A stretch of DNA of 64,000 nucleotides, from assembly GCF_025452235.1 (NCBI RefSeq), contig NZ_CP104965.1:1426001-1490000 (forward strand), read 5' to 3'. The translations under genes and the position numbers were made by a program. Under the pieces are notes generated by a model. It saw nothing but the letters and a program-made list of their open reading frames with translations. It had not been told where the DNA came from and made no database searches. Source of the DNA: Devosia neptuniae (GTDB lineage Bacteria; Pseudomonadota; Alphaproteobacteria; Rhizobiales; Devosiaceae). The first letter of the stretch is position 1, and every line of letters begins with the position of its first letter. Shown here in pieces: positions 2,058 through 8,824 of the stretch.

Positions 2058-3872
2058 ATGAGCTTGCGCAATATCGCCATCATCGCCCACGTTGACCACG
2101 GCAAGACCACGCTGATCGACGTTCTGCTCAAGCAGTCCGGCTCGTTCCGCGAGAACGAACGCGTCGAAGAACGCGCCATGGACAGCAATGATATCGAGCG
2201 TGAGCGCGGTATCACCATCCTGGCCAAGGTCACCAGCCTGCTCTGGAAAGACACCCGCATCAATATCGTGGATACCCCCGGCCACGCCGACTTTGGCGGC
2301 GAAGTCGAGCGCATCCTCTCCATGGTCGATGGCGTGGTGATCCTGGTCGACGCGGCCGAAGGCCCGATGCCCCAGACCAAATTCGTGCTCGGCAAGGCGC
2401 TGGCGCAGGGCCTGCGCCCGATCGTGGCGATCAACAAGATCGACAAGTCCGACGAGCGGCACCTGGAAGTTCTCGAAGAAATCTTTGACCTCTTCATCGC
2501 GCTCGACGCCTCGCCCGAGCAGCTCGATTTCCCCGTGCTCTACGGTTCGGCCAAGCAGGGCTGGATGGCGCTGGAGCCCGAAGGTCCCAAGGAAGATCTG
2601 GGCCCGCTGCTCGATAAGGTCATCGAACACGTGCCGGAGCCGACCGTCGAAGAAGGCGCGTTCCGCATGCTGGTCACCACCATCGAGCGCAATCCCTTCC
2701 TGGGCCGTATCCTGACCGGTCGCATCACTTCGGGCAGCGTCCGTTCCAACGATCCGATCCACACGCTCAACCGTGAAGGCAAGGAAGTCGAAAAGGGCCG
2801 CGTCTCCAAGGTGCTGGCGTTCCGCGGCCTTGAGCGCACCCCGGTCGATGTCGGCGAAGCCGGCGATATCGTCGCTATTGCGGGTCTCGTCACCTCGACC
2901 GTGGCCGATACGCTGTGCGCCACTTCGGTGACCAAGCCCATCGCCTCCAAGCCGATCGATCCCCCGACCCTGTCGGTGACCTTCCGCATCAATGACGGCC
3001 CGCTGGCCGGCCGCGAAGGTGATAAGGTGCAGTCCCGCGTCATCCGCGAACGCCTGATGCGCGAAGCCGAAGGCAATGTCGCCATCAAGGTGACGCCCGG
3101 CGACGACAATGACTCCTACGACGTGGCCGGCCGCGGCGAATTGCAGCTGGCCGTGCTGATCGAAAACATGCGCCGCGAAGGGTTCGAGCTGACCATCGGC
3201 CGCCCCAAGGTGCTGATGCAGGATATCGATGGCGTCCGCCACGAACCGATCGAAGAAGTCATCATCGACGTCGATGATGAGCATACCGGCACCGTGGTGC
3301 AGAAGCTCACCGAGCGTAAGGGCGAACTGACCGATATGCGTCCGTCCGGCGTTGGCCGCACCCGCATTCAGCTGCTGGTCCCGACCCGTTCGCTGATCGG
3401 CTACCAGCCCGAATTGCTGAGCGATACCCGTGGCACGGCGATCTTCAACCGCCTGTTCCACTCCTTCGTGCCGTTCAAGGGCGATCTGCCGACCCGCCGC
3501 ACGGGCGTCTTGATCTCCAACGGCACCGGCCAGTCCGTCGCCTTCGCCTTGTGGAACCTCGAAGATCGCGGCCCGATCATGATCGACGCCGGCGTCGACA
3601 TCTATGAAGGCATGATCATCGGCGAGCATTCCCGCGAGAATGACCTTGAGGTCAATGCGCTCAAGGGCAAGCAGCTCACCAATATCCGCACCACGTCCAA
3701 GGACGAAGCGGTGCGCCTGACCACGCCCAAGAAGCTCACCCTCGAACAATCGCTCGGCTATATCGCCGAAGACGAATATGTCGAGGTCACGCCCAAGTCG
3801 ATCCGCCTGCGCAAGATCTGGCTCGATCCCAATGATCGCAAGCGCAATATGCGCGCCCAGAAATCGGCGTAA
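2058..3872 (+). CDS. typA: ribosome-associated translational GTPase TypA/BipA
   Basis: This 604-residue translational GTPase has the family's normal length and belongs to the EF-G-like superfamily; it acts on the ribosome and in large-subunit assembly under stress. The G1 motif AHVDHGKTTL lies at residues 9-18, the RERGITI switch follows, then G3 DTPGHADFGGEVER and G4 NKIDK. The EF-G-like domains III and V and the TypA-specific C-terminal domain (NIRTTSKDEAVRLTTPKKLTLEQ) follow. The ATG at 2058 is preferred over an upstream TTG because AGAGG precedes it and the protein then begins MSLRNIAIIAHVDHG as in the family. The gene stands alone, with a 214-base leader after the VOC pseudogene. Identification is secure. 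Confidence 0.97.
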   Translation: MSLRNIAIIAHVDHGKTTLIDVLLKQSGSFRENERVEERAMDSNDIERERGITILAKVTSLLWKDTRINIVDTPGHADFGGEVERILSMVDGVVILVDAAEGPMPQTKFVLGKALAQGLRPIVAINKIDKSDERHLEVLEEIFDLFIALDASPEQLDFPVLYGSAKQGWMALEPEGPKEDLGPLLDKVIEHVPEPTVEEGAFRMLVTTIERNPFLGRILTGRITSGSVRSNDPIHTLNREGKEVEKGRVSKVLAFRGLERTPVDVGEAGDIVAIAGLVTSTVADTLCATSVTKPIASKPIDPPTLSVTFRINDGPLAGREGDKVQSRVIRERLMREAEGNVAIKVTPGDDNDSYDVAGRGELQLAVLIENMRREGFELTIGRPKVLMQDIDGVRHEPIEEVIIDVDDEHTGTVVQKLTERKGELTDMRPSGVGRTRIQLLVPTRSLIGYQPELLSDTRGTAIFNRLFHSFVPFKGDLPTRRTGVLISNGTGQSVAFALWNLEDRGPIMIDAGVDIYEGMIIGEHSRENDLEVNALKGKQLTNIRTTSKDEAVRLTTPKKLTLEQSLGYIAEDEYVEVTPKSIRLRKIWLDPNDRKRNMRAQKSA

Positions 3873-3912
3873 GCCGGGGTTAGGGTTTCGCCACTAGGTT
3901 TCCATCACGTCA

Positions 3913-3933
3913 TTGCCCGGCTTGTCCGGGCAA
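3913..3933. terminator. hairpin between typA and the DedA gene
   Basis: TTGCCCGG at 3913-3920 and CCGGGCAA at 3926-3933 form a perfect 8-bp stem with a 5-base loop, 41 bases after the typA stop. A weak T-rich stretch (ATTTCT) follows. It probably terminates typA transcription, though it could be a decayed short palindromic repeat. Confidence 0.5.
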
Positions 3934-3990
3934 TCCATTTCTAGGGCCACCGCATCGGGTGGCGACGTTGGCGCGGCAAGGAGCATCCCC

Positions 3991-4608
3991 ATGACCGATT
4001 GGATCATCCAGACCATTTCCCAGTGGGGCTATGCCGGCATTTTCGCCGTGATGCTGGCCGAATCCATCTTCCCGCCCATCCCGTCCGAATTGATCATCCC
4101 CTTTGCCGGCTTTGCCGCCGCCAATGGCGATCTCAACTTTTTCGGCGTGTTGATCGCGGCGACTGTCGGCGCGGTGGTCGGCATGCTGCCCTGGTATTAT
4201 GCCGGCCGGCTATTCGGGCTCGAGCGCGTGCGGCGCCTGGCCGACCGCTTCGGGCGGGTCATGACGCTCAACGCCGAAGAGATCGACGTCGCTGTCGACT
4301 GGTTCCATCGCTTCGGCCCCATCATCGTGCTGTTCGGCCGGCTGATGCCGCTGATCCGCACGCTGATTTCTATTCCCGCGGGCCTCGCCCGCATGCCATT
4401 GCCGGTGTTCCTGCTCGCCTCAACCAGCGGCGCGCTGATCTGGAACATTATCCTCACCTCCGCCGGCTACCTGCTGCATGAGCATTACGAACTGGTCGAG
4501 GTGATCCTTGATCCGCTCAGCTACATCGTGCTGGCCCTGGTGGTGGTGATCTACCTGGTGCGGCTGGTAATGTGGAAGCCGAGCAAGCCGCGTAGGCCGG
4601 CGGAATAG
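3991..4608 (+). CDS. DedA-family inner-membrane protein
   Basis: This 205-residue DedA (SNARE-associated/VTT domain) protein has several hydrophobic segments (about residues 12-60, 50-75, 130-165 and 180-200). The family signatures are visible: the N-terminal re-entrant segment ESIFPPIPSE near residues 24-33 and the FGRLMPLIRTLISIPAG block near residues 115-131. DedA proteins are integral membrane proteins linked to lipid scrambling, including undecaprenyl phosphate recycling, and to membrane potential homeostasis. The ATG at 3991 has AAGGAG before it. It is followed by a 299-base gap carrying the sigma-54 promoter locus, so it is probably not co-transcribed with yggT. The substrate is not determinable from sequence. 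Confidence 0.9.
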   Translation: MTDWIIQTISQWGYAGIFAVMLAESIFPPIPSELIIPFAGFAAANGDLNFFGVLIAATVGAVVGMLPWYYAGRLFGLERVRRLADRFGRVMTLNAEEIDVAVDWFHRFGPIIVLFGRLMPLIRTLISIPAGLARMPLPVFLLASTSGALIWNIILTSAGYLLHEHYELVEVILDPLSYIVLALVVVIYLVRLVMWKPSKPRRPAE

Positions 4609-7874: not shown

Positions 7875-8054
7875 AGGTGTTTTGTAGCGCAATGATTGCC
7901 GACATGGTCACGAGGGGGCGAACCGGAGGGGATCGGCGGCCGCTGCTGACTTTACGCTTTCGATTTCAACTACGCCCGTTCAATACACAAAATGTGGTGC
8001 GATGGGCTTTGCAGCAGGTCGAATAGGCCCCGAAGTTGGAAGAACCCACCGGCC

Positions 8055-8418
8055 GTCATCCTCGGGCTTGACCCGAGGACACTATACTTCAAGATGCCGA
8101 CATGGGCTTCTACATCTACATCCTTGCCGACATGCGGCGCGGGCGCACTTATATTGGCGTCACCAATAACCTTGTGCGTCGTGTCTACGAACATCGGGAA
8201 AGTTTAGCCGAAGGGTACACCAAGGCCAACAGCATCAAACGGCTAGTCTATTTCGAAGAGTTTGGCGAGATTAGTATGGCGATCCAGCGTGAGACCTCAT
8301 TGAAGCGCTGGTATAGAAGCTGGAAGATCGAGCTGATTGAGAAGAGCAATCCGGACTGGCGTGATCTCTGGGACGAGATCGTCAAGTGAAGAGCCCTCGG
8401 GTCAGGCCCGAGGGTGAC
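8055..8418 (+). mobile_element. putative 364-bp unit: GIY-YIG gene enclosed by inverted palindromes
   Basis: A 25-base palindromic element at 8055-8079 is repeated in inverted orientation at 8394-8418, differing at three positions. Both read outward-in as GTCA(T/C)CCTCGGGC, then (T/C)TGACCCGAGG. The left copy ends 22 bases before the GIY-YIG start codon and the right copy begins 4 bases after its stop. Only this gene lies between them. The same palindrome without a gene occurs as a pair at 8603-8679. The arrangement resembles a minimal transposable unit or a REPIN with its own nuclease. Mobility is inferred from layout only; no target-site duplication is obvious. Confidence 0.4.
8102..8389 (+). 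CDS. small GIY-YIG nuclease-domain protein
   Basis: This 95-residue protein is essentially a single GIY-YIG domain. The two signature strands are FYIYILADM (residues 3-11, YIY for GIY) and TYIGVT (residues 16-21). The conserved Arg follows in NNLVRRVYEH, the metal-binding Glu in IQRETSLKRW (residue 64), and a late Asn in EKSNPDWRDL. All catalytic positions look intact. Proteins of this small UPF0213-like group occur in many copies in alphaproteobacterial genomes and have no settled function. UvrC, homing endonucleases and Slx1 share the fold. The ATG at 8102 has no strong ribosome site, as is common for genes moved between contexts. Codon use (TTA, CTA, AGT, TAT) is less GC-rich than in neighbouring genes. 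Confidence 0.85.
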   Translation: MGFYIYILADMRRGRTYIGVTNNLVRRVYEHRESLAEGYTKANSIKRLVYFEEFGEISMAIQRETSLKRWYRSWKIELIEKSNPDWRDLWDEIVK

Positions 8419-8602
8419 ACGGGGTGGGGTCGGGCTATCAGCTCTCTGTCTCGGCCCGTTCAACTTACCCTCAAATCAACGGCAAGAAACCGAAAGTGCG
8501 GCGGCGCCGGCCCGCTGCATTTTTAGCCCGGACCGCGGCGGAATGACACCGCCATCGGTTGAGCCCCCCGGGATTCATCCCCAATCCCTCCTCCCCACAA
8601 TT

Positions 8603-8679
8603 CTCCCTCGGGCTCGACCCGAGGCCACTCGTCGCTTGTGCCAGATTGGGAAAAGGCCCGCGGGTCAGGCCCGAGGGAG
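8603..8679. repeat. inverted pair of the same palindrome that flanks the GIY-YIG gene
   Basis: The left arm at 8603-8626 contains CCTCGGGC, then TCGACCCGAGG. The right arm at 8655-8679 is its approximate inverse. A 28-base spacer separates them. The core (CCTCGGGC-NN-GACCCGAGG) is the core of the elements at 8055-8079 and 8394-8418. It looks like a gene-less relative of the GIY-YIG unit 200 bases upstream. Confidence 0.6.
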
Positions 8680-8730
8680 AGACGCGGTGATGTTGGGAGC
8701 AATGGTGGCTTGCACTAACTCGGCCCCCAC

Positions 8731-8824
8731 CCACGGTGTCATTCCCGCGAAAGCGGGAACCTCCGTTTCGGGGTGCTGAAGAAAGCAAACAGAGGTCCCC
8801 GCTTTCGCGGGGATGACATTGTGG
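8731..8824. repeat. REPIN-like inverted repeat pair, GTCAT-headed family, copy 1
   Basis: Arms at 8738-8763 and 8792-8817 are inverted copies of a 26-base element (24 of 26 identical) that begins GTCATTCCCGCG and contains its own GCGAAAGC hairpin. CCACGG and TTGTGG-like sequence borders the pair. A second copy of the same pair is at 53286-53376. Confidence 0.8.

Follow-up and report, generated by a model that had tools for sequence, protein, structure and literature searches.

A small GIY-YIG nuclease gene of Devosia neptuniae lies between two mirrored palindromic repeats, and the same arrangement recurs in many bacteria. This recurrence suggests that the gene is the missing partner of a large repeat family for which no enzyme was known, the CGTC-tagged REPs. 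We consider it probable, on balance, that the gene and its two REPs form an inherited unit and that the nuclease is the dedicated partner of CGTC-type REPs, in the way that RAYT proteins are of GTAG REPs. An earlier note on this DNA had proposed a GIY-YIG-driven REP system. The REP-bounded unit at the heart of that proposal is well supported, and the driving of the repeats by the nuclease is the part that we infer.

The stretch analysed, referred to as the window, comprises 64,000 nucleotides (Table 1). It contains a 95-aa ORF with an ATG start, whose product is a GIY-YIG protein (PF01541, E 4.2e-14; 55 bits, compared with a curated cut-off of 22.6). Residues Y6, Y17, G19, R27, H31 and E64 are invariant across 14 nuclease sequences and include the conserved Tyr, Arg and Glu that we take to be the active-site motif of GIY-YIG nucleases. 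The left palindrome, GTCATCCTCGGGCTTGACCCGAGGA (8055–8079), ends 22 bases before the start codon, and the right palindrome, CCCTCGGGTCAGGCCCGAGGGTGAC (8394–8418), begins 4 bases after the stop codon. As inverted copies they differ at 3 of 25 positions, so the bracketing of the frame by inverted 25-base palindromes at 4–22 bases was described correctly in the earlier note. The inverted-arm score at this gene was 18, and at most 9 in 20 shuffles; together with the genus-wide counts given below, this rules out chance palindromes. CCCACC boxes similar to those outside both REPs were found near the outer end of 24/62 class A, 18/58 class CD, 3/16 class B and 0/22 class E arms, versus 27 of 1620 random 30-mers. 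Among solved structures, UPF0213 (BH0048, PDB 1zg2), known as a structure entry, was the best of two sequence matches (E 5e-8), the likeness being one of sequence only. An NCBIfam search of five nuclease members assigned no family.

Table 1. Features of the nuclease unit and its neighbourhood in the D. neptuniae window.
Feature	Position	Strand	Basis
Outer CCCACC box, left end	8045..8050	+	sequence
Left REP, tag CGTC + hairpin (CGTCATCCTCGGGCTTGACCCGAGGA)	8054..8079	+	sequence
GIY-YIG nuclease gene, 95 aa, subfamily A1	8102..8389	+	profile match, tree clade
Right REP, inverted, tag TGTC on minus strand	8394..8419	-	sequence
Outer CCCACC box, right end (GGTGGG on +)	8423..8428	-	sequence
Gene-less inverted pair, same core, TCTC-headed type (A2-like)	8601..8681	.	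sequence
Second gene-less inverted pair, TGTC-ATTCCCGCGAAAGCGGGAACCT type (class C)	8737..8818	.	sequence

Genome-wide, the core CCTCGGGYNNGRCCCGAGG was matched 33 times in forward and 31 times in reverse orientation, at 51 distinct places, and the reversed-pattern control retrieved none. In its GTCA-headed form it is found only twice in this genome, as the two flanks of the window gene, and up to 142 times in relatives. The nearby gene-less pair (cores at 8606–8624 and 8658–8676) had been taken for the same palindrome. It does share the core, but it carries a TCTC head and an inner sequence unlike that of the gene flanks, and was therefore rejected as the same repeat type. The head on the side shown was also examined at 25 further core sites of this genome: it was TCTC at 17 and GTCA at none. 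The TCTC-headed type has 34 matches in the genome, where no gene of the corresponding clade, A2, was found.

Two small GIY-YIG genes were detected in this genome, together with a third PF01541 match in a 560-aa open frame that is probably UvrC. The second small gene (L084, G000:C2:996000-1004000, at about 3866–4165 on the + strand) is arranged as REP-REP, gene, REP-REP, with two complete inverted pairs of the CCCCGGCGCAGGCCGGGG type, unlike the window palindrome. The second gene-less pair of the window is a TGTCATTCCCGCGAAAGCGGGAACCT palindrome, which flanks a GIY-YIG gene (L137) in another genome of the same species; neither small GIY-YIG gene of the D. neptuniae genome belongs to this type. 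Eighteen B-type palindrome matches were also retrieved from this genome (G000), in which no B-type nuclease gene was found.

Inverted arms were defined as a score of at least 15 within 150 bp on both sides of a gene, and were sought in the flanks of small GIY-YIG genes among the matches listed for 75 Devosia genomes. They were found at 74 of 101 genes of this family, leaving 27 without good arms inside 150 bp; the corresponding count for neighbouring genes from these stretches was 4 of 485. For a different type of GIY-YIG gene it was 0 of 7, and a habit common to all GIY-YIG genes is thereby ruled out. The count of 101 takes in one 59-aa stub; eight small matches, two duplicate proteins and one gene close to a contig end were excluded from it, as were 3 of 111 Devosia loci (L110, L129 and L133) with no ORF at a profile E of 1e-4. 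Outside the genus, arms were detected in the rest of the order at 38/66 genes (2/131 neighbours) and in a set of named genomes at 39/79 (9/217 neighbours). Six records of the named set are from Devosia, and arms were present in three of these; without the six, the count is 36/73. Arms were also present in Cupriavidus, Lysobacter, Azospirillum and Neisseria and in two metagenome bins labelled as other phyla. The earlier note had allowed that GIY-YIG copies elsewhere might lack such flanks, or that the flanks might lie at random genes; the first proved false, and for the second the neighbouring genes gave the 4 of 485 mentioned above.

Among records from a plasmid collection, 7 of 8 units had arms when the search reach was 300 bp. 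Three records filed as plasmids, CP090106.1, NZ_CP104127.1 and NZ_CP119140.1 (3.7, 3.5 and 2.2 Mb), are chromosome-like, and the first carries gltA, lpxAB and purQS.

CGTC is the tag of one of the two published REP super-families. According to the available text of the paper that defined it (Di Nocera et al. 2013, PMC3733652), these REPs 'apparently lack a dedicated transposase', and no enzyme was known for them at that date. As described there, they resemble many of the arms that flank the nuclease genes, with a [CT]GTC tag, a short stem, a loop of 4–5 nt and a CCA tail; like the units, they form inverted dimers and occur in alpha-proteobacteria and Neisseria. The difference is that no transposase gene is tied to CGTC REPs in that text, whereas here a GIY-YIG gene lies between such REPs. 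The term 'GIY' is absent from the main text of that paper and from the accessible text of the later papers PMC8266576, PMC8049555 and PMC6006769. A search of titles and abstracts in open-access literature yielded none linking GIY-YIG genes with REPs. Where 'GIY-YIG' and 'RAYT' occurred together in the portions of papers retrieved, they were separate mentions or an accident of spelling.

To score the tag, we required [CT]GTC beside a hairpin with a stem of at least 7 bp, at most one mismatch and a loop of 3–6. Such hairpins were found in at least one arm of 45/80 Devosia units versus 24/1600 random stretches, of 15/38 units in the order versus 5/760, and of 22/39 units in the named genomes versus 4/780. 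Both window REPs have the tag and the hairpin, with CGTC on the left and TGTC on the right. Their tails are ACT and TCT instead of CCA, which is found in many arms of other classes.

The arms sort into a few palindrome classes, and each class accompanies a single nuclease clade or a small number of them. Mapped on the protein tree, palindrome class shows 5 changes (6 without the relabelling by hand of arm L047 from A to CD), compared with 31–47 in 1000 shuffles. Subfamilies were defined as clades of the tree, an earlier grouping by motif having missed members. The match between class and subfamily is owed in part to physical linkage. Two clades, A1 and A2, have the core CTCGGGCTTGACCCGAG in common. 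Arms of A1, the clade of the window gene, mostly have the GTCA head and the inner end GCTCTxxACTT, and the A2 copy L130 has a TCTC head and the inner end GCC, with further heads in other A2 arms. Members of subfamily E (L029, L033, L051, L058 and L098) are flanked by larger palindromes, CCTCATGGTGAGG...CGAACCACGAGG, in which a CGTC tag is not evident, so the pairing of gene and palindrome extends beyond CGTC REPs.

The edges of the unit are visible when copies at different places are compared. Of 701 pairs of the same class in different genomes, 640 had no common outer flank, and in 125 of these homology ended on both sides at most 15 bp from the outer arm ends (A 104/321, B 8/23, CD only 8/255 and E 5/41). 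In weaker pairs of the same class, the match extended little beyond the gene. Among A1-type inverted pairs with at least 150 bp between the arms, 17 of 27 measured 364–369 bp. In one Devosia genome, two A1 genes lie in series in a tandem unit (L096, 3569–4268).

Shorter forms accompany these units. Fourteen short gene-less pairs were retrieved, 12 of A1 type (83–175 bp) and two TCTC-headed, and many of them have the same inner ends as the gene units. Three of the 14 match the 3' end of the gene (65 nt at 94%, 28 nt at 89% and 13 nt), compared with 6 of 700 shuffled controls. Full elements with inverted ends, together with internally deleted short copies, are the pattern of insertion sequences and their MITEs. 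The same pattern is seen here, with one match of only 13 nt, in an element of about 365 bp that encodes a GIY-YIG enzyme. In Devosia, single palindromes with a head on both sides were found at 59 sites with at most one mismatch. For GTAG REPs, the available text of PMC6006769 states that 'double foot' REPs could arise by central deletion of an inverted dimer, and by analogy the double-headed palindromes of the CGTC type could likewise stem from central deletion.

Sites with and without the gene were compared among relatives. The earlier note had allowed that the unit might never distinguish empty from filled sites, but it does. The cleanest case was found in Sphingobium, in an alignment of three filled records and four without the gene. 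At the corresponding spot, TomTYG64 and TomTYG74 each have one palindrome, with a GTCA head on both sides, which is composed of the outer half of the left REP and the outer half of the right REP. In TomTYG72 and TomTYG65, the palindrome is absent from the site. On the tree, the sister group of the filled clade includes both gene-less forms, a topology that fits gain as well as loss. In Sinorhizobium meliloti Ak57, the gltA–lpxB interval contains five REPs together with two copies of the gene, one truncated and one full; positions 2162–2962 of L323 correspond to this tandem, in which the truncated copy lies between two REPs beside the full copy. Three Sinorhizobium records with a mean identity of 95.5% over the aligned pieces cover less of this locus. 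One of the three, M103, was aligned: it is gene-less, with an intact hybrid palindrome at the position of the truncated copy of Ak57 and a degenerate palindrome at the point where the full gene of Ak57 starts. The gene-less allele of another Sinorhizobium site leaves 36 bases unaligned, among them a degenerate palindrome. At both Sinorhizobium sites the unit is missing and palindromes are kept, less cleanly than in Sphingobium. A clear palindrome was not seen at gene-less sites of Shinella. In a comparison of 30 genomes at the position downstream of hppA, the unit was seen in the D. neptuniae genome (G000) and in G068, but divergence of the intergenic DNA prevented the exact definition of an empty site.

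We read the unit as the CGTC counterpart of the RAYT/REP system, in which we would include cleavage and nuclease-driven spread. Like RAYT/TnpA-REP (GTAG REPs, REPINs and REPtrons), it has a gene between inverted REPs, its own REP type for each gene, short inverted pairs that spread without the gene, and mostly a single gene copy per type and genome. It differs in its enzyme, a Y1 HuH transposase there and a GIY-YIG nuclease here, and in its tag, GTAG there and [CT]GTC in many arms here. A full unit of about 365 bp would consist of an outer box, a CGTC-type hairpin, the gene, an inverted CGTC-type hairpin and a second outer box. Gene-less short inverted pairs would be internally deleted, non-autonomous derivatives, and the double-headed single palindromes either the smallest remnant or the target.

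No strand-joining activity is known for GIY-YIG enzymes, so this nuclease alone could not transpose in the classical manner. We therefore favour a mechanism in which the REP hairpin is cut and another copy then serves as the repair template; recognition, cleavage and repair-driven copying by the nuclease are the steps that we infer. The nuclease may recognise its own REP hairpin, as a cruciform or as single-stranded DNA of the lagging strand, and cut in or beside the hairpin loop. The break would be repaired from another REP copy, each outer half-palindrome being common to both, and repair would copy REP pairs, and sometimes the whole unit, into the cut site. Such a model would account for the borders common to gene and REPs, for the lone palindrome where the gene is missing and for the short derivatives. 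A further-reaching version, which we put forward tentatively and hold to be somewhat less probable than its negation, is that REP-gene-REP is a self-mobile element of only about 365 bp that spreads into palindromes through a cut in the hairpin and repair from a template, with no strand-joining transposase involved. The CGTC REPs of bacteria at large, and perhaps the ATTCCC repeats of Neisseria, would then be its short derivatives. If true, this would set the unit apart, as a class of mobile element in its own right, from DDE, Y1, serine, tyrosine and retro-elements.

In Neisseria gonorrhoeae, an unannotated GIY-YIG gene was observed inside an array of 16 ATTCCC-N8-GGGAAT repeats (L354, 606–2179), which we take to be dRS3. 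An open-access literature query with the ATTCCC repeat sequence returned nothing on the repeats.

Free-standing GIY-YIG homing endonucleases are likewise small nucleases, linked to a site that some relatives have and others lack. It is conceivable, but in our view unlikely, that the REPs are independent of the nuclease and serve only as landing sites, a homing-type gene cutting them and leaving two inverted copies upon insertion into one palindrome. The gene-less Sphingobium alleles whose single palindrome combines the outer half of each flank, and the truncated S. meliloti copy, which corresponds to one such palindrome in a relative, would fit this reading, as would the persistence of REPs in genomes where the matching gene was not found. 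Ten genomes had at least 10 A1-type REPs and 18 had at least 15 B-type matches although the A1 or B gene, respectively, was not found among the matches listed. Against it stand the inner ends common to gene units and gene-less pairs, the gene pieces inside some short pairs, and the small number of double-headed palindromes, 59 versus 1231 A1-type matches. In contrast to homing endonucleases, no intron or coding target was seen here, the REP borders are class-specific and the short derivatives are dispersed.

Counts of A1-type repeats also follow the A1 gene, as expected if the nuclease is the partner of its REPs. The median number of A1-type REPs was 18.5 in the 20 genomes with an A1 gene versus 1 in the 55 without one among the matches listed (p 6e-6); 29 of these 55 had at least one A1-type REP. 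The counts were not clearly predicted by the A2 gene (p 0.17) or the B gene (p 0.065). Several findings weigh against the link: counts of the A core were associated with B genes as well (p 0.008), the genomes mentioned above have many repeats and no matching gene found, and the D. neptuniae genome has an A1 gene but no A1-type REPs beyond the two that flank it. Across 30 genomes, the link between gene and count was weak even uncorrected, with Fisher p values of 0.21 (at least 10 copies) and 0.035 (at least 20 copies), and with relatedness controlled, which left too few pairs, it was not significant. Repeats may outlast their own nuclease, or be served by another.

The nuclease genes are under strong purifying selection, with a median dN/dS of 0.13 in A1 (209 of 253 pairs unsaturated) and 0.045 in B (27 of 28), and among the matches listed the A1 gene is single-copy in 16 of the 20 genomes that carry it. 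Both observations would suit a host enzyme for hairpin processing or repair, whose small gene has REPs as terminators or stabilisers and which drives no mobility. We regard this as improbable: the units lie at different places in the 640 pairs mentioned above, relatives differ by the presence of the unit, and a terminator is required on one side only. Duplicates within genomes also have borders near the REPs. Of four within-genome pairs of loci at least 75% alike, three show homology that stops 0–13 bp past the outer arm ends of the first copy, and in that of G073 it continues 99 bp beyond the stop codon.

Equally improbable is that the REPs are mobilised in trans by another enzyme, such as an IS transposase, with the gene as a passenger between two of them; several genomes do have REPs and no matching gene found, but palindrome class tracks nuclease subfamily, and the Y1 search gave no match in the D. 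neptuniae genome or in 72 of the 75 Devosia genomes. The Y1 profile (PF01797) had 0 matches in the former and was matched in 3 of the 75, and a Y1 transposase was accordingly rejected as the local driver.

REPs are among the commonest repeats of bacterial genomes. Given a class-specific GIY-YIG partner, a single small protein and one hairpin would suffice to put the origin of CGTC REPs directly to the test. Such a partnership would also extend the enzymes that shape bacterial repeats to a class for which no joining chemistry is known.
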